Shown one piece after another: positions 8,683 to 57,206 of a stretch of DNA of 64,000 nucleotides. Both the position numbers and the translations under genes were made by a program. Position 1 is the stretch's first letter, and every line of letters starts with the position of its first letter. The stretch comes from Spirosoma validum (lineage in GTDB: Bacteria > Bacteroidota > Bacteroidia > Cytophagales > Spirosomataceae): positions 310,001-374,000 of the forward strand of contig NZ_JACXAA010000002.1 of the NCBI RefSeq assembly GCF_014699035.1, read 5' to 3'. The notes under the pieces were generated by a model. That model saw nothing but the letters and a program-made list of their open reading frames with translations, ran no database searches and was not told the DNA's origin.

Positions 8683-10059
8683 TTGTACCAGTTAGAACCT
8701 ATTGCTGCGCTGGCTACTGCGCCGGGCATCGGTGCTATTGCCGTTGTTCGCGTGTCGGGCGAAAGCGCCATTGACATTACAAACCGGATTTTTTACGGGA
8801 AAGACCTGACCCGCCAAGCGTCACATACCGCCCATTTTGGTACGTTACGTAATACGGATGGCAGTCTGATCGACGAAGTAGTGGCAACCGTATTTCGTGC
8901 GCCAAAGTCGTTTACGAAAGAGGATGTCGTTGAGATTTCATGCCATGGTTCGGAGTTTATTATTCAGCAACTGTTACGTCGGCTGACAGCCGAAGGTGTA
9001 CGATTGGCCCGACCAGGCGAGTTTACGCAACGCGCTTTTCTGAATGGTCAGTTTGATTTAGTACAGGCTGAAGCCGTTGCCGATCTGATTGCTTCGGATT
9101 CGGATGCCAGTCACCGAGCCGCCCTGACACAACTGCGCGGAGGCTTTTCGAAGCAACTCAAGACGCTTCGCCAGCAACTGATCGATTTTGTCGCCCTGGT
9201 CGAACTGGAACTGGATTTCGGCGAAGAAGATGTTGAGTTTGCCCACCGCGAACAACTCCGGCAACTCATGCTCGATATTCGGCGTGTTCTGCATCCATTA
9301 ATAGAGTCATTTTCGGCTGGTAATGCGATAAAAAACGGCGTTCCGACCGTTATCGTTGGTAAGCCCAATGCGGGTAAGTCGACTCTTCTGAATGCACTGT
9401 TGAATGAAGAAAAAGCCATTGTGTCCGATATTCCTGGCACAACCCGAGATGTCATCGAAGACGAATTATTTATTGACGGCCTTCGCTTTCGATTAATCGA
9501 TACAGCCGGTCTGCGTCAGGCGACTGATCAGATCGAAGCCATCGGTATTGAACGGACGCAACAGAAAATGCGGGATGCTGCTCTGGTTGTGTATCTGTTC
9601 GATGGAAAAAATATAACGCCGGACGAATTGCAATCAGCGATTCAGGAAATCCGTTTGTCGGGAAAGCCCTATATATTGGTAGGAAACAAGCTCGATGCGC
9701 TGACCGATGAGAAAAAACAAGCCTTAGAGAACGTTGCCGGAGAGAAGGTTGCCTGGATTTCGGCTGCTCAGCAAACTCATTTAGACGAATTGAAAGCTGT
9801 GTTGTCGAGCCGGGTACGTACCGATACGGCTGTACAAACGGGTAGTGCTGTGGTGACGAACGCTCGACATTACGAACACCTCACGGGAACGGATGATGCG
9901 TTGGCGCGTGCTATTTCAGGACTGGATGCAAGCGTGACACCTGACTGGCTGGCCATGGATTTACGAGTGGCCTTACGACATCTTGGCGAACTTACGGGTG
10001 AGATAACAACAGATGATTTATTGGATTCAATTTTCAGTAAGTTCTGTATCGGAAAGTAA
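8683..10059 (+). CDS. mnmE: tRNA uridine-5-carboxymethylaminomethyl modification GTPase
   Basis: MnmE, with MnmG, modifies the wobble uridine of certain tRNAs. Its 458 residues show the N-terminal folate-binding domain, then the GTPase domain with G1 GKPNAGKS (226-233), G2/DIPGTTRD, G3 DTAGL, G4 NKLD and G5 SA, and the invariant C-terminal CIGK (455-458). A stop codon lies seven codons upstream with no ATG between, so TTG at 8683 is the only sensible start; no clear ribosome-binding site is visible. The final 18 bases, which encode FCIGK and the stop, are also the attachment core of the island that follows. Confidence 0.95.
   Translation: MYQLEPIAALATAPGIGAIAVVRVSGESAIDITNRIFYGKDLTRQASHTAHFGTLRNTDGSLIDEVVATVFRAPKSFTKEDVVEISCHGSEFIIQQLLRRLTAEGVRLARPGEFTQRAFLNGQFDLVQAEAVADLIASDSDASHRAALTQLRGGFSKQLKTLRQQLIDFVALVELELDFGEEDVEFAHREQLRQLMLDIRRVLHPLIESFSAGNAIKNGVPTVIVGKPNAGKSTLLNALLNEEKAIVSDIPGTTRDVIEDELFIDGLRFRLIDTAGLRQATDQIEAIGIERTQQKMRDAALVVYLFDGKNITPDELQSAIQEIRLSGKPYILVGNKLDALTDEKKQALENVAGEKVAWISAAQQTHLDELKAVLSSRVRTDTAVQTGSAVVTNARHYEHLTGTDDALARAISGLDASVTPDWLAMDLRVALRHLGELTGEITTDDLLDSIFSKFCIGK
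10042..10059 (+). other. attL-like core at the mnmE 3' end
   Basis: TTCTGTATCGGAAAGTAA encodes FCIGK-stop of mnmE. It recurs at 57137-57154 as TTCTGTATCGGGAAGTAA, with one mismatch. Similarity starts exactly at the first T of the core and continues to the right of both copies (10060-10110 with 57155-57205, 36 of 51 positions by eye, no gaps). SGI1 and related islands integrate at the same 18-bp mnmE (trmE/thdF) 3' sequence. Confidence 0.75.
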
Positions 10060-10103
10060 ACGCACCTACTGAATTAGTATCATTATCATTATAAATCGCA
10101 ATG

Positions 10104-10127
10104 AAAGCCCTTTAAAGGGGCTTTTTT
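10104..10127 (+). terminator. Intrinsic terminator after mnmE
   Basis: The stem AAAGCCC (10104-10110) pairs with GGGCTTT (10118-10124) around a 7-base loop and runs straight into six Ts (10122-10127). It lies 45 bp after the mnmE stop, on the island side of the attachment core. Confidence 0.8.
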
Positions 10128-10160
10128 GTTACTGTTACCACCCGTTTATTCAGTGATAAT

Positions 10161-10184
10161 AAATGTATATTCATCATACATTTG
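10161..10184 (+). promoter_or_regulatory. Candidate promoter with inverted repeat for the integration module
   Basis: TACATTTG at 10177-10184 matches the Bacteroidota -7 consensus TAnnTTTG. It overlaps an inverted repeat, AAATGTAT (10161-10168) with ATACATTT (10176-10183), which could bind a repressor. It lies about 118 bp upstream of the HTH protein start. I did not find a convincing -33 element. Confidence 0.4.
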
Positions 10185-10301: not shown

Positions 10302-10868
10302 ATGAGCACTAACATTCGAATCTTACGTATTTGCCAGCACTGCGGAAAGGAATTTGAAGCCCGTACGACGGTAACGAAAACCTGTAGTGACACCTGCGCG
10401 AAAAGGGCGTATAAAGCCCGTCAAAGGGCGGCAAAAGTTGAGATGAGTAATCAGCAGACTCAGCAGATCAAAACGCAGCCTATCGAAGATTTGAAGGCTC
10501 AGGAATTTCTTACTGTTGATGAATCGGCAAAGCTCATCCGTATCAGCCGCCGTAGTTTATACAGACTCAATGAGCGAGGAGAGTTGCCTTTCGTCAAGCT
10601 CAACCGTCGTACGGTTATACGTCGTTCTGATATTGATCTACTGTTTGATCGGCCAGCCCAACTATTAGAGCAAAGCCGTCCAGCTCCGGTACTACTGTCG
10701 GAATGTTACACCATGAAAGAAGTTATGCAGAGATATGGTATTTCTGAAAAAGCGCTGTATGAACTAATCAAGCGCAATGATATTCCTAAGCAGTACAGTG
10801 GTATTTACGCGTACGTGCCAAAGACCCGGATTGATGAGCTATTATCTTATACACCTATTCAATCATGA
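10302..10868 (+). CDS. Zinc-finger and double helix-turn-helix protein (excisionase-like)
   Basis: A 188-aa DNA-binding protein. The N-terminus has a putative zinc site, CQHC ... CSDTC (residues 11-33), similar to the small zinc ribbons in integrase-associated proteins. Two excisionase/MerR-like winged HTH units (HTH_17 type) follow: FLTVDESAKLIRISRRSLYRL (about 65-85) and CYTMKEVMQRYGISEKALYEL (about 136-156). The stop overlaps the integrase start (ATGA), so the two genes are translationally coupled. It probably acts as a directionality factor or regulator of the integrase, and the 20-bp iterons directly upstream are plausible targets. Confidence 0.72.
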   Translation: MSTNIRILRICQHCGKEFEARTTVTKTCSDTCAKRAYKARQRAAKVEMSNQQTQQIKTQPIEDLKAQEFLTVDESAKLIRISRRSLYRLNERGELPFVKLNRRTVIRRSDIDLLFDRPAQLLEQSRPAPVLLSECYTMKEVMQRYGISEKALYELIKRNDIPKQYSGIYAYVPKTRIDELLSYTPIQS

Positions 10869-11986
10869 TTAAGGTTCATTTACGTAAGAAGCCGATTAGT
10901 AACGGACGCACCAGTCTGTATTTAGATTACTACCCGGCAATTCCTCATCCTGACACGGGTAAACCTACCCGGCGTGAGTTTTTAGGGATGTATTTATTCA
11001 ATCGACCAAAGACGCCAGCTGATAAAGAACAGAATGCTGAAGCGTTAGCTCTAGCCGAAACCATCCGAGCCAAACGGCAGATTGATGTGCAAATGGGTGC
11101 CTATGGATTTCTTTCCAAGCGGCAACGGATGGCCTGCTTTGTCGAATATTTTGAGCAGTTAGCCGCAAAGCGTAAAGGCAGTAATGCCGATAACTGGACA
11201 AGTGCTCTGTATTATCTGCAAGATTTTACTGGTGGAACGCTACGGTTCTCAGACCTGACGCCTTATAAATGCGAATCTTTTAAAAGTTTTCTCCTAACAG
11301 CACAAAACCGGCGAAATGGTGATGCATTAGCAACAAATTCAGCCGTTGCTTACTTTGGGAAATTCAAAGCAGCATTGAAGCAGGCTTTTAAAGAAGGCTT
11401 ATTGGCAATTGACTTAAGTACTAGAGTAGAGGGCATCAGGCCAGATGAGACCTATCGCGAATACTTAACACTAGAAGAACTGCAAGCTCTGGCCCGTACT
11501 GATTGTCCAGCCATGCCTCAACTTAAACAAGCTGGCTTATTCTCAGCATTAACGGGTTTACGATACTCGGACATTGAAGCTTTGACTTGGGGACAGATTC
11601 GACATGATGCCGTGAATGGATATGTTATCCACTTTACCCAGCAAAAGACCAAAGGCGTCGAAGTAATACCCATTTCGGAACAGGCCGTTCTAGTTCTAGG
11701 CGCACGTTTAAGCGATGATCAGCCTATTTTATCAGGGCTACAGTACTCTGCTACGCTCAATAAAGTCCTACGTCGGTGGGCAGCTGAAGCTGGAATTAAA
11801 GGGAAGCACTTATCTTTTCACTGCTTCCGGCACACTTATGCCACATTACAACTCTCACTTGGAACAGACATTTATACTGTTTCAAAAATGCTTGGGCATC
11901 GCGAATTGAAGACAACGCAGATTTACACCAAAATTGTGGATCAGGCGAAACGGGATGCTGCGGACAAAATTAAAATTAGCTTATAA
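10865..11986 (+). CDS. Tyrosine recombinase/integrase of the island
   Basis: A 373-aa site-specific recombinase. The N-terminal part (about 1-200) contains the arm-binding and SAM-like core-binding regions. The catalytic domain shows all expected residues: R in TGLRYSD (near 232), a K in the beta-hairpin QQKTKG, HCFRH (HxxR near 318), GHREL (near 341) and the nucleophile Y in TTQIYTK (near 353). Its position about 800 bp from the left attachment core and its coupling to the HTH protein fit integration at mnmE. It belongs to the phage-integrase group common in Bacteroidota mobile elements. Confidence 0.9.
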   Translation: MIKVHLRKKPISNGRTSLYLDYYPAIPHPDTGKPTRREFLGMYLFNRPKTPADKEQNAEALALAETIRAKRQIDVQMGAYGFLSKRQRMACFVEYFEQLAAKRKGSNADNWTSALYYLQDFTGGTLRFSDLTPYKCESFKSFLLTAQNRRNGDALATNSAVAYFGKFKAALKQAFKEGLLAIDLSTRVEGIRPDETYREYLTLEELQALARTDCPAMPQLKQAGLFSALTGLRYSDIEALTWGQIRHDAVNGYVIHFTQQKTKGVEVIPISEQAVLVLGARLSDDQPILSGLQYSATLNKVLRRWAAEAGIKGKHLSFHCFRHTYATLQLSLGTDIYTVSKMLGHRELKTTQIYTKIVDQAKRDAADKIKISL

Positions 11987-11997: not shown

Positions 11998-12867
11998 ATG
12001 ACACCTGAACAAATTAAACTTGAATTTCAAAGATTATTCCTTGTATTATTAAGAGGAGGCAGCGTCGAAAAAATACGGCTAGAGTTAGAACCGCTTTATA
12101 GAACTTCAAAAGGGATGGCAGCGATTAATTTGCTGACAGATTGGGTTGAGAAAGGTAAAAAAGAGATAGACGACAGAAATCAAAACGTGTCTTATACTGA
12201 AGAAGATATTCGCGAGAGAATAGAATATCCCGTAAGCGAGATTTTTGAGTCAATCAGTTCTGATGTATTAGATTCTGTGACGAAGAAATCATTTTATGAG
12301 TTTTATAAAAGCTTTAATAAAGCAATATATCTTTTATATGAAGCGAAGCAGAATGAATTAACTTATGCACGTTTTGAGGAGCTATTTACCGGAAAACCTG
12401 CAAGGGTAGAGAGTATGGATTTATTGTATGCTGAACTGGATAAAAATTTTACTCGAATTCTAACATCTAATTCAAACGATATATTCTCATCCTCAAATGA
12501 AAATATATCGTTTGAATTAGATGTTAGCGTTCCTTCAGTAAAGGCTTTTAATGATCTTTTTGATAATGCTGAAGATTTAGATAAGTATGTGGGAATACTA
12601 AGAAATTTTAGGTCTGATAAACCAGTAATTAATAGCGATAATGAATGGCTGGGCGGCCGGAAAGATGGTAGCAAAAAAATTCTTATTGCTTGGATAGACC
12701 GATTGAAATATTGCAAAAAAATTCCTAATCATTTGGATAAGAGGCAGTTGGCAAGATTGTTGGAGGATTTTTTTCAAGGTTTAAAATTCGGTGAACATTT
12801 AAGGTATTTTGACAACAGTATAGATCCAGATATACAAGAAAAGTTCAGAAAGCTTATGCCCTTATAG
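11998..12867 (+). CDS. Unknown protein downstream of the integrase
   Basis: A 289-aa predicted cytoplasmic protein that I do not recognise, starting 11 bp after the integrase stop. It is rich in charged residues and probably mostly helical, and its DNA is visibly more AT-rich than the chromosomal genes on the left, which suggests separate ancestry. The unusual feature is a 31-bp inverted repeat inside the gene (12460-12527), so residues around 155-177 read LTSNSNDIFS then ENISFELDVS, encoded by both arms. Its position suggests an accessory role in the mobile module, but there is no direct evidence of function. Confidence 0.6.
   Translation: MTPEQIKLEFQRLFLVLLRGGSVEKIRLELEPLYRTSKGMAAINLLTDWVEKGKKEIDDRNQNVSYTEEDIRERIEYPVSEIFESISSDVLDSVTKKSFYEFYKSFNKAIYLLYEAKQNELTYARFEELFTGKPARVESMDLLYAELDKNFTRILTSNSNDIFSSSNENISFELDVSVPSVKAFNDLFDNAEDLDKYVGILRNFRSDKPVINSDNEWLGGRKDGSKKILIAWIDRLKYCKKIPNHLDKRQLARLLEDFFQGLKFGEHLRYFDNSIDPDIQEKFRKLMPL
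12460..12527. repeat. 31-bp inverted repeat inside a coding region
   Basis: The arms are 12460-12490 and 12497-12527, with one mismatch in 31 and a loop of only six bases (CCTCAA). The outer 26 bp are perfect, beginning CTAACATCTAATTCAAACG. The frame stays open across the repeat on both strands. Such a stable cruciform or hairpin inside a gene is rare and would also form in the mRNA. Confidence 0.85.
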
Positions 12868-12893: not shown

Positions 12894-12955
12894 ATTCTAA
12901 GTGCAATATTGAGCTTTCCATTTTTGTGCCATGTTTCATAAAAAAAATATTGAAC

Positions 12956-13309
12956 ATGGATAATGAATTCATTGTAGTACCCCGTACGCAATTCAAAGTA
13001 TTAGTGTTTGAAGCTTGTATCGATGCGCTTAAGTCGCTCCAAGTACCCACTGTATTACAGTCTGGAGCGGATAGATGGATGACGATCGAAGAACTGAGCG
13101 ATTATTTACCTGGCAAACCAGCAGTGACGACACTGTACGGTAAAGTACAACGTCGTGAATTGCCTTTTAAACGACTAGGCCGTCGATTGACCTTTCTACA
13201 ATCAGAGATAGATCAATACCTAAAGGGACAGTCGTGTATGTCTCATATTGAGATCAATGCTGTTGCAGATCAGTATGTAAAAACTAAGAAAAGGGGGCGC
13301 AGACAATGA
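12956..13309 (+). CDS. Helix-turn-helix DNA-binding protein (excisionase/MerR-like)
   Basis: Using ATG 12956 (MDNEFIVVPRTQF) gives 117 residues; ATG 12926 is in frame but would add ten residues of unlikely sequence. The N-terminal part is helical. Residues about 40-85 form an HTH_17-like unit (WMTIEELSDYLPGKPAVTTLYGKVQRRELPFKRLGRRLTFLQSEIDQYL), the fold of excisionases and plasmid regulators. The C-terminus is basic. This arrangement, a short N-terminal helix then HTH_17, is common in the mobile DNA of Bacteroidota. It is a probable regulator of the replication-like genes to its right. Confidence 0.65.
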   Translation: MDNEFIVVPRTQFKVLVFEACIDALKSLQVPTVLQSGADRWMTIEELSDYLPGKPAVTTLYGKVQRRELPFKRLGRRLTFLQSEIDQYLKGQSCMSHIEINAVADQYVKTKKRGRRQ

Positions 13310-13503: not shown

Positions 13504-13541
13504 AGTGGCTCCTCAGGACGTATGTGCCAAATCTTAATCTT

Positions 13542-13853
13542 ATGACAAAACAAACCACTTTTTCGCTGACACAAGCTGCCGATCTGTTACACTTCTCAGG
13601 TGGGGTACAGAACTTTATTTTCACCTTACGCACACAACGGTACCTGGACAAAGATTTACGGCCCTACCAATTTTGTATTAATGCAGGCTGGTTTGTGGGC
13701 GATATGCACTCACTGCCAGATCCGAGAAATTTTAAACGGTTTACATTGATCCCCTCCCTGACGATCAGAGGACTCAACTACTTTGACAAGAAGTTCAACG
13801 GCAACGAACGTATCATTCCTGACTTGACCGATTTAAACGATCTTCCGTACTAA
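13542..13853 (+). CDS. KilAC-like small protein, copy 1
   Basis: A 103-aa protein starting at ATG 13542 (a GTG 18 bases upstream is less likely). It is a paralogue of the next gene: both begin TTFSL-x-QAAD, share a GG-x-Q-x-FI segment and end in a motif of the type T-x-(R/K)-G-x-x-YF-x-KK-(F/I). This pattern resembles the winged-helix KilAC domain of phage antirepressors (AA-x-x-L ... T-x-K-G-x-x-Y). It is probably DNA-binding and involved in regulation of the element. The domain call is by pattern only. Confidence 0.5.
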   Translation: MTKQTTFSLTQAADLLHFSGGVQNFIFTLRTQRYLDKDLRPYQFCINAGWFVGDMHSLPDPRNFKRFTLIPSLTIRGLNYFDKKFNGNERIIPDLTDLNDLPY

Positions 13854-13855
13854 CC

Positions 13856-14188
13856 ATGAACCAAAATCCAACAACATTTTCACTGGCACAAGCTGCTGAT
13901 ATCATCCAAATGACTGGTGGTGCTCAGGCATTCATCGACTGGCTGTATTGCCAGGAATACTTAACGGATGATTTGCTGCCCAGCCGAGCTGCCATTAACT
14001 CTCGACTAATTATCAGTCGGTATTTATCTATGCCGAATGGAGAAAATAGACCCGAGTTGCACATTACTGTCAAGGGAATTGCCTACTTCTGTAAGAAGAT
14101 TAATCATGGTAATTATTTAGCTCGTAACTGGTTTATCTCAGATAATGTACACTCCACTAAGTATGCTCGACGTAAAACGATCATTTAA
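13856..14188 (+). CDS. KilAC-like small protein, copy 2
   Basis: A 110-aa protein two bases after the stop of its paralogue, so the two are surely co-transcribed. It shares with it TTFSLAQAAD, TGGAQAFI and the C-terminal TVKGIAYFCKKI. The middle segments differ strongly, which suggests that the copies have diverged in function. Its 3' end overlaps the beginning of the DUF3987 gene by about 44 bases if that gene starts at 14145. It is a candidate antirepressor or DNA-binding subunit of the replication module. Confidence 0.5.
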   Translation: MNQNPTTFSLAQAADIIQMTGGAQAFIDWLYCQEYLTDDLLPSRAAINSRLIISRYLSMPNGENRPELHITVKGIAYFCKKINHGNYLARNWFISDNVHSTKYARRKTII

Positions 14189-15572
14189 TTGTATTGACGA
14201 GACTGCCGATACGGATCTGTCAGTTCTGAAAGCCAGCTTGCCAACCGCCTTACAACGACTGATGGACTGCCATGACGAAGATAGTGAATACTTGACAGCG
14301 TTGATGACCACTCTGGTGGTAGGGGGGAGTATCATTCCCGAAGTCAGTGCTATCTATGATCGACGACGGATATATCCAAACCTGATGCTTTTTATCGTCT
14401 GTCCACCGGCTGGCGGTAAAGGAGTGGTTAGTTTGGGTACTAAGCTACTCCAGCGTATTAATCGCCATTTGAGTGAGAGCTATCAGAGCGCTCTGGCAAG
14501 TTATCAGCAGCAGATGGATCAATATCGATCCTCCCTGAAGACCGACCAGCCGGATAAGATACCAACCAGGCCCAAACGGGCACAATTGCTGGTGCCAGGC
14601 AATATAACCACGGCTAAGTTCATTCAGCAGATGGCAGATAACCAATCCCTGCCGCTGATTATGGTTGAGACAGAAGCCGATGTTATAGCAGGTTCCTTCA
14701 AAAGCGATCATGGCAGTCAATTAAGCACGCTGTTCCGTCAGGCCTATCATCATGAGCGGGTAGGGCTATCAAGGAAAACCAATAATGAACTAATTGAAAT
14801 TGAAAAGCCTAAGTTATCCGTGGTTATCGCTGGGACAGATAATCAGATTTTATCGATCTTCAAAGGTAATCAGGATGGTTTGTATTCCCGATTCCTGTTT
14901 TTGCGCGGTGTGAGCAGCATGCAATGGCGTAGCCTAAGGCCGAGCGCTGGGTCAAGTTCGTTAGATGACCATTATACCGAGTGGTCAGAATGGTTTTACA
15001 GGGTATGGCTGCAAACCCAAACATTACGGGTTGAAGTTAGCTTCACCGACAAACAATGGGACCTGCTTGATGAGCGTGGTCAACAGCAGCAGGCAACCGC
15101 TCATTTCGTTGGTGGAGATTACTCGGTCAGTATTGCCCGGCGTCATGGGTTGATGGTCATACGACTGGCAATGACACTTTCCTTTTTTCGTCGGGTCGAT
15201 CCCGTCACTGGAAATGTAGATGGATTTATAAATAGTTGGGTCTGTGATGATGTAGATTTTGAACTGGCGTTGATGCTGGCAAATATTTCATTTCAGAAAA
15301 GTCTTAACCTCTACAGGACGATGCCGCAGCACCCGAGTATCCATATCGCTACTGGGAAACGGATGACCTTTTTTAATGCTCTTCCTGCGCATTTTGAGAT
15401 GAAGACCGTTAATGCCATTGCTAGTGGACAGGGTGTTGCAGAACGAACAAAAACCCGCTGGCTTAGTAGCTTTTGTGAGACGGGAATGTTAGTGCAAATA
15501 GATCGGGGGGAGTATAAAAAAACAGCAATGGCGGCTGTGGCCGAAGAAGCCGTAGACCAGATTGACGCCTAA
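14145..15572 (+). CDS. DUF3987 protein (primase/helicase-associated, mobile element)
   Basis: A 475-aa protein of the DUF3987 type, found in integrative elements of Bacteroidota, often fused or adjacent to primases. It contains the P-loop-like IVCPPAGGKG (about 84-93), the typical segment LPLIMVETEADVI, KPKLSVVIAGTDNQI and the C-terminal region. I see no separate primase domain, so this is either the ATPase half of a replication protein or a stand-alone relative. A later ATG at 14163 (MLDVKRSF) is an alternative start. It is the last gene of the mobility module and is followed by a strong terminator. Confidence 0.72.
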   Translation: MYTPLSMLDVKRSFNCIDETADTDLSVLKASLPTALQRLMDCHDEDSEYLTALMTTLVVGGSIIPEVSAIYDRRRIYPNLMLFIVCPPAGGKGVVSLGTKLLQRINRHLSESYQSALASYQQQMDQYRSSLKTDQPDKIPTRPKRAQLLVPGNITTAKFIQQMADNQSLPLIMVETEADVIAGSFKSDHGSQLSTLFRQAYHHERVGLSRKTNNELIEIEKPKLSVVIAGTDNQILSIFKGNQDGLYSRFLFLRGVSSMQWRSLRPSAGSSSLDDHYTEWSEWFYRVWLQTQTLRVEVSFTDKQWDLLDERGQQQQATAHFVGGDYSVSIARRHGLMVIRLAMTLSFFRRVDPVTGNVDGFINSWVCDDVDFELALMLANISFQKSLNLYRTMPQHPSIHIATGKRMTFFNALPAHFEMKTVNAIASGQGVAERTKTRWLSSFCETGMLVQIDRGEYKKTAMAAVAEEAVDQIDA

Positions 15573-15842: not shown

Positions 15843-16865
15843 TTAGCTGCTTCGTACTGATGATGTACGGATAATAAGTTGCGTATCAAATACAATAGTT
15901 TCACTATTTACTTCATCCTTACTTTCAATCTGACGCAATAATAAGCGGACTGTTTCAGCTGCCATCTCTGTAATCGGTTGATTTATACTACTTAGAGTAG
16001 GTGAAAAAAAGGCCGATACTGGTTCGTTATTGAAGCTAACGATGGCTATATCCTTCGGTATAACCAATCCTTTCTGTTGCATCGCGTACAGCGCTGGATA
16101 AGCAATCCGATCACTTATAGTAACGACCCCATCGGGTGGATTGGGCAAACTCATCAGCGCCAGAGTTTGTAAGATCGTGTTTTCATTGGTGTAATCACAG
16201 TGCCGTACGTATTGACCGCCAGCCGTTACGTTATGTTGGGCAGCAGCTGCTAAATACCCTTCAATTCGTTGGCTGCTTAAGGATAACTGGGGCGGTCCCG
16301 CCAAAAATCCAATCCGACGACAACCCTGTTCAATCAAATGCTCGGTTGCTTTAAAAGCAGCTGCCCGATTATCGACCATTACTTTGGACACTGATGTAAT
16401 ATCGGCTGTACGGTCAACTAATACGATTGGTATTCCTTTTTTGACTAATCGCTCAACATGATCAAAGGTAGAGGTATCACGGGAAAGCGAAAGAACAAGC
16501 CCCTCTACCTGGCTGCGCAGCAGGTTTTGGATACTGATGGTTTCGCGTACGTACGACTCATTAGTTTGGGCCACCAAGACGCTATAACCCGCCTGCATAA
16601 AGGCTTCTTCCAGGCTGTTTAGCATAGCCGAGAAATAATGGTATGATAAGTTAGGGAAAATAATGCCGATTGTTTTGGTACGGCTTTTTACCAGATTTTT
16701 CGCCAATTGATTAGGCTGATAATCCAGTTCCTCCGCCAATCGTATCACGGCCTTACGTGTATCGGGATGAATCTCCGGCATATCACGTAGTGCCCGTGAA
16801 ACGGTTGAAATAGATATATTCAATTTGCGGGCGATGTCTTTGATCGTTACAGGTGTGTTTTTCAT
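15843..16865 (-). CDS. LacI family transcriptional regulator
   Basis: A 340-aa regulator starting at ATG 16865 (MKNTPVTIKDIARK); ATG 16877 is in frame four codons upstream but less typical. The N-terminal LacI HTH reads TIKDIARKLNISISTVSRAL, then the hinge helix NQLAKNLVKSRTKTIG, then a periplasmic-binding-protein-like sensor domain with the typical GIIFPNLSYHYF, DGVVTISD and SINQPI motifs. It is divergent from the sigma/FecR/SusC operon and separated by 432 bp that contain two LacI-type palindromes, so it probably represses or autoregulates in response to a sugar acid released by the locus. Confidence 0.9.
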   Translation of the reverse strand: MKNTPVTIKDIARKLNISISTVSRALRDMPEIHPDTRKAVIRLAEELDYQPNQLAKNLVKSRTKTIGIIFPNLSYHYFSAMLNSLEEAFMQAGYSVLVAQTNESYVRETISIQNLLRSQVEGLVLSLSRDTSTFDHVERLVKKGIPIVLVDRTADITSVSKVMVDNRAAAFKATEHLIEQGCRRIGFLAGPPQLSLSSQRIEGYLAAAAQHNVTAGGQYVRHCDYTNENTILQTLALMSLPNPPDGVVTISDRIAYPALYAMQQKGLVIPKDIAIVSFNNEPVSAFFSPTLSSINQPITEMAAETVRLLLRQIESKDEVNSETIVFDTQLIIRTSSVRSS

Positions 16866-16918
16866 AAAGTGCAGCAATCGCTGAAATATTACTTTTTCAA
16901 TAAAGAGCTCTCGGGGAA

Positions 16919-16930
16919 TTAAACGTTTAA
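16919..16930. promoter_or_regulatory. LacI-type half-operator palindrome TTAAACGTTTAA
   Basis: A perfect 12-bp palindrome with the AACGTT core found in LacI-family operators, 54 bp upstream of the LacI-family start. It shares the AAACGTTT core with the larger palindrome at 17003, which suggests that both bind the same regulator and form an autoregulatory pair. Confidence 0.5.
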
Positions 16931-17002
16931 GTGATAAGACACACGTCGTGTGAGCAATTGTACACGGAAAATTTTAATCTTTTTTGGTCATAATTCCATA
17001 AT

Positions 17003-17026
17003 GCAAACGTTTCCGGAAACGTTTGC
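17003..17026. promoter_or_regulatory. 24-bp perfect palindrome, LacI-family operator
   Basis: The half-site is GCAAACGTTTCC, followed exactly by its reverse complement. Each half itself contains AAACGTTT. It lies in the divergent intergenic region, 138 bp upstream of the LacI-family start and 272 bp upstream of the sigma factor gene. The remaining ~400 bp here hold no gene that I can see. Confidence 0.75.
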
Positions 17027-17297
17027 AAAAAAATATACGGTTTAAGACTCGTTTTTTTGCATGAAATAGCTTGCTGTCTTGTACTTATGGAGTATTTTAG
17101 TAGAATATATTCAAGAAACAGATCATAGAGGATTTTGAATAAACATTTATCAAGTTTCCTTACTTTACTAGGTGAATTGTATTTTGCCGCGATATTGTGC
17201 TTTTGAATATACGTATCGGTAAGACTTTCATTAATGTCGCTTGTTTAAATTGCGTCAGAATTGTACAACATTAACTTAAAGTATTTACCAATTAATC

Positions 17298-49265: not shown

Positions 49266-51077
49266 TTACTTTTTCCCTTTGGCCTTCTTCATTTCCTTCC
49301 CAAAGCCGTTTGGAATGATATTATTTGTGTGTAGCCACTGCAATCCTTTTTGTAATTGTTCGGGTGTGTACAGCAGCTTACGGTCACTCCAATTGTAGAA
49401 GTCTTGGATTAGTAGTTCTTCGGCCACAGGCTGATTCAGGACAATTCGGTTGTTCCAGACCGCATACAACGTAGCAATTATTTCGGCTTCGATGTCCGTT
49501 ACATCGGCTAACAACGTAAATAGGTTATCAAGGCGGTTTACAACAGGCTGAAAAAAGCTTTGGTAATAGCCGTCAATCTGTCCCTTTTTTTCGAGTGGGG
49601 TAAACTTATTCTCCTCTTTTGCAAACCAGTTCGAGGCTTTAAACTTTTCCGAAATGGTGTGCATATAGACGTTATCGTATGGACCAGCAGCCTGATAGTA
49701 ATAATTCCAGTTCAAATCGACTTCGGCTACGTGCTCAGCTAAGTATTGAATTTTCTGAAACTTGATATTTGTAAAATGAGGATCGTTCTGAAACAGGGAG
49801 ACGATTTTTCCCCCTAACACCTGCTTGGCAAATGCTTTCTTGTTGTCGGCAATGAATAGATCTTCCTGCTTTATTACGTTCAAATCTTGCTCTTCAAGCT
49901 GATTAATACTGTTTACCGTTACCTGACCATTCATCAGCATTGGCAGCAGCCAGTCGCGAAGCGTAGAAAGGCGTTGGTTTTCTTTTTTAGTGCTGAGGAT
50001 TTTTTCGTAGAAGCTTCCAGTAATAGAATCAAACTTTTTAATAATATCAACCGGCGGTATTGAGATTGACGTTAACTTAAAATCATTAGAAACAATTGCG
50101 TCAAAAACAGAGCCATTTGCTTTAGATTTCAACTGCCTTACAACATCACAGACACATAAGTGCAGAAAATAATAATTGATATCTGGTTTTGCCTGTAAGG
50201 CATAGCAGGATTGGTTCATGGCCATATCCTGTGCTGCAATATTTACATTTCCAACAGTTCCGCGTGCAGTAACAAATATTGTTCCTTTTGGAAATAACCT
50301 TGTGCTACAATTTTTTAATCCTTTTTCGGTAATAGATTGTAGTGTAGAAACTACGAAAATAGAATCCTCTACATCTTTGGGCGTAAAAAAAGGAATATTA
50401 CCTGACCAGTAAGATGGTTCTTTTGTATTAGGTGTGCCACCACCTAATAAATCACCGACTCTCAAAATATTTCCAGCCTCCCAATCTTCCGGTATTTCCC
50501 GTTTCAGTTCTTCATTCCAAACCATCTTGCCACCGTTGCTTTTATAGGGTTTACCGTTGGCATCGGGGAAATCAAACTGCACGAACCAATAGTCGTACAA
50601 GGTTTTAGCCATTGCTTCTAGCTCAGCATTGATGCGGTTGTTAAGCTCAATTTTGGCATCTAAAGCGGAAAGGACAGATGCTATAGGAATCTGGTATTTT
50701 CTTTCAACGTAAGGGACTTTTAGCTCATGTAAATCATTTCTGTTAATACCTGGTACTGCGCTTTTATCTGACTGACTTAAACTATTTAAACTCTTTAGTA
50801 GATAATAAACATACTTAGGGTAGTTTCCTTTAAAATCAATGACGTACAGTGCTGTATTATGTGGCCAGTATCGGCCATTTATATAATACATCTCTCCAAG
50901 AGTACCATATCGACCTGTTACTAAACCCTCACCTTCAGCTTTGTACTCATTATGATATCCTGTGATACCTGCTGAACTCAATATTGGATATTTCCCGTCC
51001 GCTCGCAAACGCGAAGGCAAATCATATCCTCTTTTAAAATTTACAATCTGCCCAATTTTTTTCCAATCACTCATCAC
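49266..51077 (-). CDS. hsdS: Type I restriction specificity subunit HsdS with extra C-terminal domain
   Basis: A 603-aa S subunit that chooses the DNA target for HsdM and HsdR. Two target-recognition domains are visible (about 1-135 and 200-350), each followed by a helical spacer (ELNNRINAELEAMAKTLYDYWF at ~144-165 and STKKENQRLSTLRDWLLPMLMNGQV at ~362-386). Residues about 410-603 are extra and do not belong to a normal HsdS. Their FTNIKFQKIQYLAEHV and YYQAAGPYDNVY resemble the Panacea/SocA (DUF4065) antitoxin fold. The gene is 9 bp after the YhcG-type gene and 54 bp before the vWA gene. The tail assignment is by pattern only. Confidence 0.85.
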   Translation of the reverse strand: MMSDWKKIGQIVNFKRGYDLPSRLRADGKYPILSSAGITGYHNEYKAEGEGLVTGRYGTLGEMYYINGRYWPHNTALYVIDFKGNYPKYVYYLLKSLNSLSQSDKSAVPGINRNDLHELKVPYVERKYQIPIASVLSALDAKIELNNRINAELEAMAKTLYDYWFVQFDFPDANGKPYKSNGGKMVWNEELKREIPEDWEAGNILRVGDLLGGGTPNTKEPSYWSGNIPFFTPKDVEDSIFVVSTLQSITEKGLKNCSTRLFPKGTIFVTARGTVGNVNIAAQDMAMNQSCYALQAKPDINYYFLHLCVCDVVRQLKSKANGSVFDAIVSNDFKLTSISIPPVDIIKKFDSITGSFYEKILSTKKENQRLSTLRDWLLPMLMNGQVTVNSINQLEEQDLNVIKQEDLFIADNKKAFAKQVLGGKIVSLFQNDPHFTNIKFQKIQYLAEHVAEVDLNWNYYYQAAGPYDNVYMHTISEKFKASNWFAKEENKFTPLEKKGQIDGYYQSFFQPVVNRLDNLFTLLADVTDIEAEIIATLYAVWNNRIVLNQPVAEELLIQDFYNWSDRKLLYTPEQLQKGLQWLHTNNIIPNGFGKEMKKAKGKK

Positions 51078-51086
51078 TCCTCAAAA

Positions 51087-52118
51087 CTAGTTAGTATCAA
51101 ACTCCTCTGTCCATTCAATTAATTTCTGCTGTAACAACTGCTTGTCAGGTAGATAAAGCTTGTACTCCGATGCGTAGATGTTGGCCTCTTTGGGCAACGT
51201 TAACTCTACAAGTGCGTCGTTTTTTTGCTTACATAACAAAATTCCAAGTGTTGGCTTTTCGTGATCGAGCTTTACATAACGGTCGTAGTAGTTCACATAC
51301 ATCTGCATCTGCCCAAGATCCTGATGCACGAGCTTATCGGTCTTCAGGTCAATTAACACGTAACATTGCAGTAGTCGGTTATAAAAGACCAGATCGACAA
51401 AGAAATGGTCTTCGTTGAACGTGAACCGTTTCTGTCGTGCTTCAAATAAAAAGCCTTTACCCAGTTCGAGCAGAAAATGCTGCATCTGATCAATAATCCG
51501 GGTTTCCAGTTGCGATTCAGAATAGGCCGTTTCGGCGTTCAGTCCCAGAAATTCCAGCACATACGGATTCTTAATCACGTCCTGCGGTGCTACTACCCGT
51601 TGTCCTTCCTGAGCCAGTTTCTGTACCTGGTCTTTATCCCGACTCAGCGCCAGGCGTTCGTACAGACTCGAATTATACTGGCGTTGCAATTCCCGTAAAC
51701 TCCAGTTATTGGCCACGCACTCCAGTTCATAGAACCGACGCTGATCGGGGTTGTCAATCCTCATCAGAATCAGGTAATGCGACCAGGATAGCTGAAAACT
51801 AGGTTGTTGCAATTCAGCAGACACTGTCTGCTGAATTGAGTACGTCTCATAAAAGGCGCGCATCTGGCGCAGATTGACCTCCGAAAAGCCTTTGCCAAAC
51901 GTATTAGTCAAGCGAACCGATAGCTCTTTCAATACCTGCTTTCCATAGCCCGCGCGTCCCATACCTTGCTGTTCGTCGTCAACAATCATACGGCCAATTT
52001 CGAAATAGGTATGCACCATGGCTAGATTAACGGCCGTCACAACCTGCTTCCGGGCGATTTCGATCAACACAGCTATTCTACCAAACAGCCGCGTATCATC
52101 GGGCAAATTAGTGTTCAT
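51087..52118 (-). CDS. YhcG/DUF1016 PD-(D/E)XK nuclease family protein
   Basis: A 343-aa protein of the YhcG type (DUF1016). The N-terminal half is helical (VVTAVNLAMVHTYFEIGRMIVDDEQ, GFSEVNLRQMRAFYETY). The nuclease half has E205, D242 (VDLVFY) and D257-L-K259 (IDLKTD), a complete D-x(n)-(D/E)xK set. It overlaps the hsdM stop by 11 bp and precedes hsdS, so it is inserted inside a type I operon. Members often occur beside type I systems, where they may modify restriction, but this role is not settled. Confidence 0.85.
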   Translation of the reverse strand: MNTNLPDDTRLFGRIAVLIEIARKQVVTAVNLAMVHTYFEIGRMIVDDEQQGMGRAGYGKQVLKELSVRLTNTFGKGFSEVNLRQMRAFYETYSIQQTVSAELQQPSFQLSWSHYLILMRIDNPDQRRFYELECVANNWSLRELQRQYNSSLYERLALSRDKDQVQKLAQEGQRVVAPQDVIKNPYVLEFLGLNAETAYSESQLETRIIDQMQHFLLELGKGFLFEARQKRFTFNEDHFFVDLVFYNRLLQCYVLIDLKTDKLVHQDLGQMQMYVNYYDRYVKLDHEKPTLGILLCKQKNDALVELTLPKEANIYASEYKLYLPDKQLLQQKLIEWTEEFDTN

Positions 52119-53736
52119 AGCGTAACCCGGCTAACTGAGCTTTAATCTCGTCTTCCAGCGTTCGGGATTCGGCAAAAAGAGCGTTGAGATTCTGTGTGAA
52201 GCCGTTCATTTTGGCCAGAAACTCGTCGGGCGTAATGTCGGTATAGTCGATTTTTACGTCGAAGTACTGCCCAGCGCTGAACGAATAGTTTTTGTCACGG
52301 ATCTGCTCATACGAGAGCACCACCGAGAAATCTTCAACGGCTTCGTGACGATTGAACGCATTGATAATCTGCTGCTCTTCATCATGGGAAAGCAGAGTTT
52401 TCTGGTTTTTACCTTCTTTAATGATCTTGCCCAGTTTAGCGGCATCCATCAGCACAATATCACCTTTGGTATTGGCTTTGTCGATAAACAGTATCGATAC
52501 ATTGGTACCAGTAGTCGCGAAAATATTGGACGGCATTGACACCACCCCCCGCAACATGCGCTCATCGACGAGTTTCTGCCGGATCTTCTTTTCGATACCA
52601 CTCTGCGCCGTAATAAATCCAGTTGGTACCACAACAGCCGCCCGACCCTTCGGTGACAAGGAATGGATAATGTGCTGAATAAAGAGCAGGTAAATCGACA
52701 TTTTATCCTTGTCTTTATTGGGGATATTGGGTATACCAGCAAAAAATCGTTCGTTGTTTCGTTTGGTGTCGAGTTCGGGGTAATAGTCGCTAAAATCGAG
52801 TTTGAAGGGCGGATTCGATACGATATAATCGAAGGTCATCAGTGCATCACCCGTTTTGTGATATGGCGACAGCATCGTATTCCCCTGAACAATGTTCGGA
52901 ATCGAATGGACGAGGTTATTCAGAATCAGGTTCAGTCGTAGCATCCCTGATGATTTTTGCGAAATATCCTGAGAGTAAATAGTACAGCGATCTTCGCCAA
53001 TGGCATGGGCAAGATTCATGAGAAGCGTCCCCGAGCCCGCCGATGGATCGTAACAGGTCACGTCGTATACGGGCGTATCGACCAGAATAGACGCCATGAT
53101 CTTTGCAACAGCGTGGGGCGTATAATATTCAGCATATTTGCCGCCCCCGTCTTTGTTGTAATCCTTGATCAGGTACTCGAAAATGGTCGAGAAGAAGTCG
53201 AATTTCTGATCGAAAATTTGCTCGAAGCTAAAGTTAACTAACTGGTTGATCAGAGCTCGGCAGAAGTTGTCGCGTTGCGAAGGATCGGAGATATATTGGC
53301 TCAGTTCATCGAACAGCCTGATACGGGAGCCGGAATTAGTTTTAACCGAAAAAATATCGTTGTTCGTAATGGCGATATCGCGCAGCGTATCATCGAAAAA
53401 CTTGGCAAATTCTTCCTGCGTTTGTTTGCCAAACAGATACGAGATGTAATGCTGGCGCTTGAGCCGGGCACTATTGGGACTCATGCCCAGCAGCAGCATC
53501 TCATAAGCATCGTCTGAGTATCCAGCGATAGCTTCTTCCCACTTTTCAGCGTTTTTAAGGGTTGAATCTAGTTGTTTGACTTCATAGCCAAACTTATCAT
53601 TCATGAATTTGTACAGAAAAACCTGCGTGATGATTTTAAATTCATTACCATCATTACCCAGTCCGTAAGACGTACAAACGCCCTTCAGGTTGTCAATCAG
53701 TTCTTTCGTCTTTGCTGTAAAGTCTTGTACTACCAT
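52108..53736 (-). CDS. hsdM: Type I restriction-modification methyltransferase HsdM
   Basis: A 542-aa N6-adenine methyltransferase subunit. The AdoMet-binding motif DPSAGSG lies at 230-236 and the catalytic NPPF at 308-311. The helical N-terminal domain (about 1-180) includes FKIITQVFLYKFMNDKF. HsdM with HsdS methylates the host DNA and with HsdR forms the restriction complex in the cytoplasm. It overlaps the end of hsdR by 7 bp and the YhcG-type gene by 11 bp, which indicates translation coupling. Confidence 0.95.
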   Translation of the reverse strand: MVVQDFTAKTKELIDNLKGVCTSYGLGNDGNEFKIITQVFLYKFMNDKFGYEVKQLDSTLKNAEKWEEAIAGYSDDAYEMLLLGMSPNSARLKRQHYISYLFGKQTQEEFAKFFDDTLRDIAITNNDIFSVKTNSGSRIRLFDELSQYISDPSQRDNFCRALINQLVNFSFEQIFDQKFDFFSTIFEYLIKDYNKDGGGKYAEYYTPHAVAKIMASILVDTPVYDVTCYDPSAGSGTLLMNLAHAIGEDRCTIYSQDISQKSSGMLRLNLILNNLVHSIPNIVQGNTMLSPYHKTGDALMTFDYIVSNPPFKLDFSDYYPELDTKRNNERFFAGIPNIPNKDKDKMSIYLLFIQHIIHSLSPKGRAAVVVPTGFITAQSGIEKKIRQKLVDERMLRGVVSMPSNIFATTGTNVSILFIDKANTKGDIVLMDAAKLGKIIKEGKNQKTLLSHDEEQQIINAFNRHEAVEDFSVVLSYEQIRDKNYSFSAGQYFDVKIDYTDITPDEFLAKMNGFTQNLNALFAESRTLEDEIKAQLAGLRYEH

Positions 53737-56700
53737 CTATAATTACCCTGATATTCGTTTACGTACTCCCGCACCACCAGACCATTGATATAGCGAGCGG
53801 AGTCAGGTGCTAATTTAACGCTTGTCTGCTGAAAACCCTTAACAACTTCCTGCTGCATCATTTGGGTAAAAAAGCCCTCATTATTCAGCAATCGGGAGTT
53901 TTTTAATACCTGATCGTCGGTCTGCTGTTTGATAATCAAGAGCGTTTCATGGATTTCACTTTCGCGTTTGGTGATGTCGCCCCGCTCCAAAATCCGCTTA
54001 TGAACACGGGCATATTTCGTGTCATTTTCGTATTTAGCCCGTAAGAGATTGTTTTTTCGGTTCAGTTCGTTCACCCGCTCATAGATCACGCGCAGTGACC
54101 CGATGTTCTGAATCATGTCGGCCTGCGTAATCTCGTCGAGGTTCTTCTTTTTGAAAAGCCGTTTCAACTCCTCATACAACGTAATAAAATCCGGGTCGTC
54201 CTGGTCGAAGTTGCTACGTAGGGCTTCGCGGGTTTTACGGAGAGTATCTTTCAACTGATCGGCCAACACCAGTTCATTTTCCGACACCTTCGTGAACATA
54301 AACAGTACATTTTCCAGGGCTATGTTAAGCAGGTTGGTGGTGTCGGTACTATTCTGTAGTGACAGCTTCTGATTCACCAGATCCAGATGATCGGCAGCTA
54401 CCCGGAAAAGCTCATTCAGCTTTTTAAAGTCGATTTTGGCCAGCAGCTCTACATGATCGAACTGTCGAATGAGGTTATACAGATTTCGGGCGTTGGCGAG
54501 CACCTTTTTAATGGCCAACATCGTACTACGATCTTCGATCTCACTGATTTGCTGTGAGAAAATTTCTGAATTGCGCAGATCATAGGGAAACAGAGTTTCT
54601 TTAATGTCCTTGATTTCGGCCTCGATCTCCTCTTTGGTTTTAAAGAGATTCGAATAGGTCTGCATCTCATCGCCGAGTTCTTGCTGAAGCTCGTCAAAGT
54701 AATCTTTATTGGTCTTATCGAACTCATTCCGAATGTCGGCAAAGTCGACTACGTAGCCGTATTGAAAACTTTTGTAGGGTCGATTTACACGCGTGAGGGT
54801 TTGCAGCAGATTATGATCTTTGACAACCCGCCCGAGGTATAGCTTTTTCAGGCGTTTGGCGTCGAATCCCGTCAGGAGCATATTGTACACAAACAGCAGA
54901 TCAATTCGACCCTCCTTAAACTCCTCTACCTGCTGCCGTCGATCGTCTTTTGTACCGGCATCATGCAGAATCAGCGCAGCCGAAAGGGCTTTTTTGGATT
55001 TAGCCGTGGTTGTATAAATGCCCTGTTGGTCAGCAGCAAGCGCAATACTAGATGAAGTACTAAGCGGAACAACGGTAGCCGTAGCCACGTATTTCGATTG
55101 AAAGAGTTCGTACAGTTTTTCAGCCTGATCAGCGCTATCGCACACCACCATACCCCCAATGGTTTGATCGCCCAGCCGCTTTCGGCTTTCGGTGAAATCC
55201 AGAATTATATAGTCGAGCATAGGCTCAACAAAGGTAGGGTGCGCGTAAATTAGCCGTCGATCCACATCGCCTTTCAGAATTTCGACTTCTTTCAAGGCCT
55301 GTTCCAACTGAATTTTATAATTTGTTTCGATGCCTTCTCGAATCAGTTTCAGCGTATAGCCATCGGCAATGGAAGCGTTGTAATAATATTTATGAATATA
55401 GTCGCCGAAAATATCCTTCGAACGAGCGTCTTTACCAATTAGGGGTGTACCGGTCAGCGCGATGACAATTGCTTTTCGATCAGACGTAGACAGGTTGGCC
55501 AGAAAACTCCCTTCCAGTTTGTAACCCCGGTGTGCTTCGTCAACAAAATAAACCCGCTGAATATCGATGGCATAATCACTGCTTTTCAGGACGCTGGTTT
55601 CTTCCTTAAACTTCTGAATATTGACGACCGTGATTTCAGGCTGTCCTGTCAGATTATGAATCGCTTTGGGCGTTCGGTAATCGCTGACCAGTTCCTCTTT
55701 TGAATTCACGGTATGAACGACCAGTCCCCGGCTGGAAAACTCGCGTTTAGCCTGGTTCATCAAATCAATCCGATCGACGATAAAATAGAATTTCGGAATG
55801 ACCCCTTTGCGCTGAAAATAATCCGTCAGGTAGGCGACATTATAAAAAGAGAGTGCCGTTTTTCCACTCCCCTGCGTGTGCCAAATAATTCCTTTCCGTT
55901 TGCCCTCGTCAATGGTTTTTTCAATGGCTTTCGTCGCAAATAACTGCGGGTAGCGCATTACATGCTTCTCAAGCCCTTTTTCTTCATGCACATAAACAAT
56001 GCCGTATTTCAGGATCATCTTTAACCGCTCCTGGCTAAAAAGTGATGTCAGGATGCGATTGGTCGGGTTATTGGGGTTTTTATTGGTAATGAATTCAGGC
56101 GAGTGCTTGATGGCTGCCAGGTTGTTGTCCTTCAGAATAACGTTTTCCAGCGTATCATCTTCAAGGGCCAGCTGGTGGGCTAGCTCGTTGGATAACTCTT
56201 CTCGAAAGCAGTTGAAGTTGACCTGCTGCGTGGACGTGGTAGCGTAAAATGCACCCTGAATGGGAACAATAGACTCGGTGTCGTACTCCATATTATTGGA
56301 GAAGACCAGAAGCTGGGAAATATTAATAAACCGTTTGAACTTCGGGTTGCTGAACCGCTTGTTGATCCGATCCCGTTCGGCCAGAACGCCCTCCCGATTA
56401 TTTGGCTTTTTCACTTCGATAAACGCCAACGGCATTCCATTGATCAGTAACGTAATATCAGGGCGGAACTCATCGTCCCCGTTTTTGCACGTCAGTTCTG
56501 TAACTACACGGAAGTCATTCGTGTCAAAATTTTTAAAGTCAACTAGTTTGATGTCCGACGTGGCCAGCAGCATTTTATAAAACTCCTGCCCTAAATCATC
56601 GTTGTCTAACGCAAGTTTTATTTTTTCGAGTAAGCGACTTACATCTTGGGCATCAACGCCAGGGTTGATTTGGTAAAGGCTTTCGTGAAAAATGTCGGTA

Positions 56701-56816
56701 AAGATATTGGTGCTTTCATCGTGGTTGGCATTCGACAAGGAGAGGTACCGATAGCCTAATCGATTAAGGTGCAGAATTGCAGGAATTTTTACACGCGTAT
56801 TCTCATTAAACGCCAT
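53730..56816 (-). CDS. hsdR: Type I restriction endonuclease HsdR
   Basis: A 1028-aa restriction subunit. The N-terminal nuclease domain has D120 (RPDITLL) and E134-V-K136 (FIEVKKPN), the catalytic PD-(D/E)XK pair. The SF2 translocase follows: Walker A HTQGSGKT near residue 313, DEAH in FVDEAHRGYK near 425, TGTPL and the helicase motif region VYNMLLTGFDAKRLK to LLQTLTRVNRPY near 690. The C-terminal ~300 residues are helical. It is the first gene of the minus-strand cassette, at the right edge of the island. Confidence 0.95.
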   Translation of the reverse strand: MAFNENTRVKIPAILHLNRLGYRYLSLSNANHDESTNIFTDIFHESLYQINPGVDAQDVSRLLEKIKLALDNDDLGQEFYKMLLATSDIKLVDFKNFDTNDFRVVTELTCKNGDDEFRPDITLLINGMPLAFIEVKKPNNREGVLAERDRINKRFSNPKFKRFINISQLLVFSNNMEYDTESIVPIQGAFYATTSTQQVNFNCFREELSNELAHQLALEDDTLENVILKDNNLAAIKHSPEFITNKNPNNPTNRILTSLFSQERLKMILKYGIVYVHEEKGLEKHVMRYPQLFATKAIEKTIDEGKRKGIIWHTQGSGKTALSFYNVAYLTDYFQRKGVIPKFYFIVDRIDLMNQAKREFSSRGLVVHTVNSKEELVSDYRTPKAIHNLTGQPEITVVNIQKFKEETSVLKSSDYAIDIQRVYFVDEAHRGYKLEGSFLANLSTSDRKAIVIALTGTPLIGKDARSKDIFGDYIHKYYYNASIADGYTLKLIREGIETNYKIQLEQALKEVEILKGDVDRRLIYAHPTFVEPMLDYIILDFTESRKRLGDQTIGGMVVCDSADQAEKLYELFQSKYVATATVVPLSTSSSIALAADQQGIYTTTAKSKKALSAALILHDAGTKDDRRQQVEEFKEGRIDLLFVYNMLLTGFDAKRLKKLYLGRVVKDHNLLQTLTRVNRPYKSFQYGYVVDFADIRNEFDKTNKDYFDELQQELGDEMQTYSNLFKTKEEIEAEIKDIKETLFPYDLRNSEIFSQQISEIEDRSTMLAIKKVLANARNLYNLIRQFDHVELLAKIDFKKLNELFRVAADHLDLVNQKLSLQNSTDTTNLLNIALENVLFMFTKVSENELVLADQLKDTLRKTREALRSNFDQDDPDFITLYEELKRLFKKKNLDEITQADMIQNIGSLRVIYERVNELNRKNNLLRAKYENDTKYARVHKRILERGDITKRESEIHETLLIIKQQTDDQVLKNSRLLNNEGFFTQMMQQEVVKGFQQTSVKLAPDSARYINGLVVREYVNEYQGNYRW

Positions 56817-57136
56817 TATTACTTTTTAAGCAGTTTGTAAAAGAAAGTGACAATATAAAGCCAAAACGCCTAGGTTGTTGACAATTCCTTTCTTTGTGTT
56901 AGAAGGTCATCATTATAGTATACATGAGCAGTAACGGAATAATTTATACTCAGGCTTGCTTACTATGTCTCCAGCAGCGTCCATATCCGAAAACGCTGAA
57001 CTGCTTACACTGATTAAACATAATAAATCCCACAAGCCCAATAAAGAAATTTACAATTTGTGTATTATTTGTACCTTAGAGTTTTTCTGTTAAGTGTATA
57101 TATCTAATTATAAGGAGCTTGGGCTTGTGCATTACT
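56817..57136. other. Right-end non-coding segment of the island
   Basis: About 320 bp between the hsdR start and the right attachment core. It must hold the promoter of the minus-strand cassette, but I find no clear Bacteroidota -7/-33 pair. It is AT-rich and has no ORF. Confidence 0.4.
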
Positions 57137-57154
57137 TTCTGTATCGGGAAGTAA
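57137..57154 (+). other. attR-like core (displaced copy of the mnmE 3' end)
   Basis: TTCTGTATCGGGAAGTAA, 17 of 18 identical to the mnmE 3' end at 10042-10059. It still reads FCIGK-stop, but there is no mnmE sequence before it. Similarity continues for 51 bp to the right, up to about 57205, as for the left copy. Confidence 0.7.
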
Positions 57155-57206
57155 ACACTACTACTAAAACAGCATTATTATTGTTATAAATCATACTGGA
57201 GGCCCA

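Follow-up and report, generated by a model that had tools for sequence, protein, structure and literature searches.

What lies between two copies of the end of mnmE that stand 47 kb apart in Spirosoma validum, and what placed it there? The window, by which we mean the whole stretch of 64,000 nucleotides analysed (NCBI RefSeq assembly GCF_014699035.1, contig NZ_JACXAA010000002.1, positions 310,001 to 374,000 of the forward strand), contains an intact mnmE gene, a second copy of its last 18 bases and, between the two, a polysaccharide utilization locus (PUL) and a type I restriction-modification (R-M) cassette. A sequence-only reading of the window had proposed that this is an island joining glycan-use and defense genes in one unit. 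We find that the interval 10060-57154 is very probably a 47,095-bp site-specific integrative element, inserted in the chromosome by its own tyrosine integrase. Two cores, an integrase, ends that are similar among sister elements, and differing flanks are all observed.

Two attachment cores and the integrase module

The features on which this answer depends are the following (att, attachment; HTH, helix-turn-helix):

8683..10059, plus strand: mnmE, tRNA-modification GTPase, 458 aa (Pfam MnmE_helical, TrmE_N); intact, ends FCIGK*
10042..10059, plus strand: left att core TTCTGTATCGGAAAGTAA, encoding FCIGK*, the last 18 bases of mnmE
10060..10151, plus strand: left end of the element; a terminator-like hairpin lies at about 10104-10128 (spotted by eye), and similar left ends occur in sister elements
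10302..10868, plus strand: excisionase-like protein with two HTH_17 stretches (Pfam)
10865..11986, plus strand: tyrosine integrase (Pfam Arm-DNA-bind_5, Phage_int_SAM_5, Phage_integrase)
57131..57136, plus strand: right end of the element, where ATTACT immediately precedes the core
57137..57154, plus strand: right att core TTCTGTATCGGGAAGTAA, whose last codons are probably the native ones of mnmE
57155..57205, plus strand: chromosome-side sequence at the right junction, resembling in part the left end of the element

The window holds the 20-base motif TTCTGTATCGGRAAGTAAAC at two sites, 10042 and 57137 (chance expectation 0.01), and a search of the whole genome (8,221,062 bases) allowing up to two mismatches returned the same two sites and no others. 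The earlier claim that the 18-bp end of mnmE recurs at 57137-57154 with one mismatch is thus borne out; the mismatch is synonymous (GGA on the left, GGG on the right). It had also been claimed that similarity starts sharply at the core and extends about 51 bp to the right, and this agrees with our counts: 13 of the 60 bases upstream of the cores are identical between the copies, which is about chance, as against 38 of the 60 downstream, where a downstream-only local score of 43 compares with a maximum of 35 among 500 shuffles and the similarity stops at about 57205. The description of a duplicated mnmE 3' end therefore stands for the core, but not for a piece of mnmE with its context, since the bases preceding the right copy are those of the element. 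A match to mnmE was found in 59 of 59 genomes searched, one being a fragment. The FCIGK* end of MnmE has a catalytic role. The integrase and excisionase-like partner previously noticed beside the left core are both recognizable by their domains, and integrase residues R233, K261, H319, R322, H345 and Y354, which we take to be the catalytic ones, are invariant among eight aligned integrases.

In the proposed mechanism, the integrase would recombine an attP core with the 18-base end of mnmE. With the crossover inside the core, the element would provide the last codons and stop of mnmE, so that the gene would stay whole, and the displaced native codons would land at the right junction, where GGG instead of the element's GGA would account for the single core mismatch. 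The double-HTH protein would act as excisionase, and excision would yield a circle joining 57136, one copy of the core and 10060.

The likely position of the crossover is suggested by 22 integrase-bearing core pairs, a count from which four integrase-free Spirosoma pairs were left out. Five pairs are identical, and mismatches in the others fall at positions 3, 9, 12, 15, 17 and 18 only, all of them third-codon or stop-codon bases. Position 6 is likewise a wobble base; three pairs have C there and 19 have T, with no difference within a pair (shuffle chance 0.0006). Judged from these alignments, strand exchange most likely spans core positions 4-8, and the left-junction bases after that region most likely come from the element; AAAGTAA is present in 16 of the 22 left cores, and right cores are more variable. 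ATTACT precedes the right core in six of the 22 elements, including all five from Spirosoma.

Use of the mnmE site in Spirosoma and across Bacteroidota

Thirty-six Spirosoma genomes, that of the window included, were searched for the core; only 29 carry the exact pattern, so copies in the other seven could be missed. Two cores were found in nine of the 36, the second always downstream of mnmE and on the same strand, at core-to-core distances of 47.1 (the window), 35.4, 9.7, 10.9, 53.5, 2.4, 1.8, 52.2 and 17.8 kb. The integrase, at an identity of at least about 65%, is present in eight Spirosoma genomes and lies about 800 bp past mnmE in all eight; a ninth genome, G033, has part of it, at the end of a contig (L142). 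At every integrase site with enough contig (5/5, the window included) a second core follows 17.8-53.5 kb on, vs 4/27 genomes without the integrase (Fisher p 0.0006), G026, G034, G011 and G033 being omitted from the test because their contigs end early. For six more distant integrases (L080-L085, identity no higher than 53%), no core lies within 1.5 kb.

For the phylum, one genome per species (84,980 species) was scanned with integrase peptide patterns that are blind to mnmE. Of 63 integrase loci, 58 follow mnmE on the same strand at no more than 1.3 kb, two do not, and three have too little upstream sequence. Forty genomes from the 58 mnmE-linked loci were searched for the core, by exact pattern only, and in 17 another core on the same strand and contig follows 17.6-49.8 kb downstream. 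No second core lies within 10 kb downstream of the integrase at any of 47 named loci; the farther copies were found by a later whole-genome pattern search. Among the 17 genomes, left ends are similar within groups, right ends are of few types, and the sequence past the right core differs. Similar ends within groups, together with differing flanks, are the signature of one integrase family acting at one site. A separate draw of 395 genomes from the phylum gave an integrase match in 23 (the window's own included), and 15 of the other 22 loci are within 1.3 kb after mnmE. In a quick tree of 78 integrase rows, with several long branches, the label 'not mnmE' (8 rows) requires two changes. On sequence evidence, then, a Bacteroidota-wide integrase family uses the 3' end of mnmE. 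This end is near-invariant (FCIGK*), a landing site much like tRNA genes, and one integrase lineage can therefore work phylum-wide. Two mnmE-integrase contigs binned as Planktophila and Rickettsiales (L133, L149) cluster tightly with Bacteroidota integrases and are probably misbinned. Sphingobacterium lumbrici (L212-L214) has three mnmE cores in tandem, 31.9 and 17.8 kb apart, the second interval holding SNF2 helicase and DNA methylase genes.

Empty sites were sought as well. The right flank of the sister element in G029, which measures 52 kb, matches G017 from base 187 onward at 128-828 from the mnmE core start (74%), and G017 has one core and no integrase match at the cut-off used; by this comparison, G017 is likely an empty-site relative for the G029 element. 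G004 and G027 share their right flank from the first base (93% over 1085 bp), with inserts of 35 vs 1.8 kb, and the right flank of G035 matches the sequence downstream of mnmE in G010, but at different distances, 8 kb in one and 0.8 kb in the other. For the island itself, the sequence-only reading had pointed to relatives in which mnmE is followed directly by sequence like that from 57155 onward, and none of the genus flanks compared shows this arrangement. Positions 57199-58022 of the window hold a hybrid two-component gene that is truncated, with its front missing and an AraC-type HTH after HisKA, and the right side has therefore been rearranged.

Several observations weigh against an integrase-inserted element belonging to such a family. 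The right flank of the window matches none of the genus stretches downstream of mnmE with which it was compared, and in G006 a homologue of its gene at 60753 is some 142 kb distant from mnmE. Two cores without this integrase are present in four Spirosoma genomes (G007, G009, G020 and G027). Their intervals, of which that of G007 holds HipA-like and RND efflux genes and that of G009 is a near copy of it, may be decayed or other elements. Also, the two cores of G020 differ at position 6. For 23 of the 40 mnmE-linked genomes the second core, by exact pattern, is absent, elsewhere or on another contig, and 7 of the 22 loci of the separate draw show no mnmE in the available upstream DNA (1.3-1.5 kb). 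As for transfer, no PF03432 relaxase was found in five Spirosoma elements (other relaxase families were not searched by name), and Pfam scans of 40 window proteins revealed no conjugation gene.

Cargo of the interval and its origin

The remaining contents of the interval, from left to right, are as follows:

11998..12867, plus strand: uncharacterized 289-aa protein occupying the slot that follows the integrase (no Pfam, PADLOC or PHROGs match)
12926..13309, plus strand: HTH_17 protein, also in Spirosoma and Larkinella sister elements
13524..14188, plus strand: two small KilAC (phage antirepressor domain) proteins, the second scoring below the Pfam cut-off
14145..15572, plus strand: DUF3987 protein
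15843..42215, no single strand assigned: PUL, in the order LacI, ECF sigma, FecR, SusC, SusD, alginate-lyase-like, GH127, GH97, an unknown protein of 543 aa, heparinase II/III-like lyase, GH97, GH88, DUF4861, SDR
43616..44692, plus strand: DUF3871 protein
46103..49211, minus strand: three proteins beside the R-M genes, namely 187 aa unknown, YaaA-like (H2O2_YaaD) and 610 aa unknown
49266..56816, minus strand: type I R-M cassette, HsdS, YhcG/PDC-S02 nuclease, HsdM, HsdR

The PUL and type I R-M genes previously placed inside the interval are thus both there, the former as a SusC/SusD pair with carbohydrate-active enzymes and a regulator, the latter as HsdR, HsdM and HsdS together. The GH88 protein closely resembles unsaturated glucuronyl hydrolases of solved structure (best E 1.8e-93) and the heparinase-like protein weakly matches heparinase II/III structures (best E 1e-9); from these matches, a uronic-acid-containing polysaccharide is the likely substrate. 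The DUF3987 gene probably serves replication; in the sister element of G253, DUF3987 occurs with PriCT_2 and an adjoining BT4734-like_N (primase-linked). The slot right after the integrase holds a differing protein in most Spirosoma elements compared, and is a possible hot spot for cargo.

Homologues of the window proteins were counted by BLAST (1e-6) in 23 delimited intervals, namely 22 with an integrase, the window included, and the second Sphingobacterium interval. The integrase is matched in 22 of the 23, as expected from intervals that were selected for it, the xis-like protein in 16, DUF3987 in 14, HsdM-like proteins in 10 and HsdR-like proteins in eight, distant R-M systems being undercounted by BLAST. 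DUF3871, SusC, SusD and the heparinase-like lyase are each found in one interval, that of the window. Sister cargo was sampled by Pfam only; the element of G029 encodes an HSDR_N protein along with two that resemble pectate lyases. Among 222 genomes of the family, one other encodes a homologue of the 610-aa protein. The 610-aa protein was considered as an Argonaute and rejected, as it matches neither a custom Piwi profile nor, convincingly, any PDB entry, and no Piwi-protein homologue was found among the window proteins tested. A prokaryotic Argonaute does occur in the element of G253 (L191:12889-14988), as a Piwi-domain protein of about 700 aa whose best PDB match is AF1318 (E 4.8e-18), and it has homologues in all 13 mnmE elements sharing the DUF6617, BT4734-like and DUF6266 clusters (of these, the G253 protein was run against Pfam and PDB). 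RND efflux pump and P-type ATPase genes, a metal-resistance-like cargo, are found in G262 (L216:663-7776) and relatives, with homologues of the pump in four mnmE elements and of the ATPase in five.

Both PUL and R-M lie between the two cores, and from this we infer that they would travel together. The earlier claim of a Bacteroidota element that holds PUL and R-M at the 3' end of mnmE thus stands, but not, as a finding, its claim that the two move together: with no SusC or SusD in the sister intervals and no second copy of the whole island known, joint movement is unproven. The strongest alternative is that a smaller mnmE element, with int, xis, DUF3987 and perhaps R-M, came first and that the PUL was added later by ordinary recombination, in which case the two would share an att-bounded interval and not yet have travelled together. 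We consider this quite possible, if short of probable. It is favored by the 22 other intervals lacking a SusC/SusD match, by the single copy of the heparinase-like gene in the window genome, which is in the island, and by GC contents of 46-50% in the PUL (18-42 kb) vs 38-45% over the int/DUF3987 portion and 39-46% over the R-M portion. Similar PUL blocks elsewhere in Spirosoma also favor it. Fourteen other genomes of the family have the lyase at an identity of at least 78%, and similar blocks surround it in all nine other Spirosoma regions fetched (33.7-40 kb each), with uneven completeness. Their enzymes are mostly 69-90% identical, SusC 37-59% and SusD 42-62%; two regions have a GH127 match, DUF4861 and SDR each have a match in a single region, and in G025 and G034 the block is present only in part. 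None of the nine has a xis, int, DUF3987, DUF3871 or HsdM match, and eight are separate from mnmE, being on another contig or far from it; in G034 the contig with mnmE stops 2.1 kb past the gene, and the PUL of this genome is not fully placed. Because similar PULs are common elsewhere in the genus, that of the island is probably captured genus cargo. As regards a possible horizontal origin of the PUL, G017 has the lowest mnmE identity to the window among 19 others compared (83.2%), yet the highest Hep (heparinase-like) identity (88.1%); the mnmE data reject a G000+G017 clade (p 1e-34), and the PUL data do not reject a G017+G027+G020 clade without G000 (p 0.196). Against later addition of the PUL, no transposase was found among the island proteins scanned, and inner core-like sites (up to five mismatches) number 2 vs a shuffle mean of 4.6.

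Less probable, and in our view unlikely, is a stack of two or more elements at mnmE whose inner att cores have since been lost. The three consecutive cores of Sphingobacterium lumbrici are a precedent, and the 51-bp similarity to the right of both cores might represent the left end of an earlier element. Nevertheless, only one integrase is present among the proteins scanned, inner cores are not above chance, and CCGCACTTA or a GGGCTTT stretch follows mnmE at some integrase-free Spirosoma sites, so that the 51-bp similarity may be native 3' sequence. A second core arising by chance or conserved as a fixed chromosomal feature unrelated to the integrase, the latter of which the sequence-only reading had named as fatal to the island, is scarcely credible and largely refuted: the 4/27 integrase-free genomes with two cores speak for it, but both cores stand at mnmE in all nine two-core Spirosoma genomes with intervals that differ in length and content, and the flanks past the right core differ in 17 other genomes.

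The mnmE site offers a fixed address for harvesting cargo, including R-M, Argonaute, metal efflux, hydrogenase and one PUL. A single excision of the island would remove a diet trait and a phage-defense trait together, and the link between niche and defense becomes testable in a cultivable genus.

Mobility and relation to known elements

The island would be mobilized by a helper in trans or by a phage-satellite-like route. The window genome has one PF03432 relaxase, on another contig, and three Flavobacteriaceae sister elements carry a relaxase of their own (by Pfam in one, by BLAST and clustering in the others). The satellite route is left open by the KilAC and DUF3987/primase-type genes and by a tape-measure protein in the sister element of G035. 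The elements of Allomuricauda profundi (L204, G276) and two relatives are small, about 19 kb, with a MobA-type relaxase, and the one scanned with Pfam carries a NiFe hydrogenase subunit and HypF as cargo.

The SGI1 family and MGIVchHai6 of Gammaproteobacteria integrate at the 3' end of trmE (= mnmE), SGI1 at its terminal 18 bases, as had been claimed for SGI1-type islands (PMC5704250, PMC5397120, PMC8409611, PMC6531882), and in a review of integrative mobilizable elements trmE appears twice, for these two (PMC5704250). Like SGI1, the island pairs a tyrosine integrase with a xis-like gene at this site, and like the island, MGIVchHai6 measures 47 kb and carries type I R-M (PMC5397120). Unlike SGI1, with its integron cargo and gammaproteobacterial hosts, the island belongs to Bacteroidota and carries glycan cargo. 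No SGI1-type mobilization or backbone genes (mpsAB, traN/G/H, AcaCD-responsive xis) appeared in the Pfam scans of the 40 window proteins, where no direct search was made. The island works like SGI1, and is not filed as a member of its family.

Among Bacteroidota, NBU1, NBU2, Tn4555 and CTnDOT of Bacteroides are likewise tyrosine-integrase elements, but NBU1 and NBU2 use tRNA genes and Tn4555 has two preferred sites (PMC5704250); MobP relaxases are listed for NBU1, NBU2 and Tn4555, and CTnDOT is a helper with its own transfer apparatus. ImmeDB records 47 PULs with SusC and SusD on mobile elements, on which R-M is also enriched (PMC6907783); these are from gut Bacteroidetes, unlike the Spirosoma island, and the available text does not mention mnmE sites. 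No description of a Bacteroidota mnmE/trmE element was found in searches of the open-licence PMC literature.

The SGI1 recombinase has been placed in an IntCTnDOT subgroup whose other named members are from Bacteroidetes (PMC8138268). A tentative and rather doubtful extension is that mnmE-specific integration represents one old Bacteroidota recombinase lineage, with the SGI1 integrase a putative descendant; if true, the targeting of the same 18 bases by the Salmonella multidrug island derives from that lineage. A plasmid integrase search returned Bacteroidota and three Alphaproteobacteria records and no Enterobacterales, and in five E. coli mnmE flanks another gene follows mnmE, with no integrase. 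In E. coli K-12 (L277:3176-3202), mnmE ends in TTCTGTATTGGTAAGTAA, followed by CCGCGCTTA, which resembles the CCGCACTTA found 3' of mnmE in several Spirosoma.

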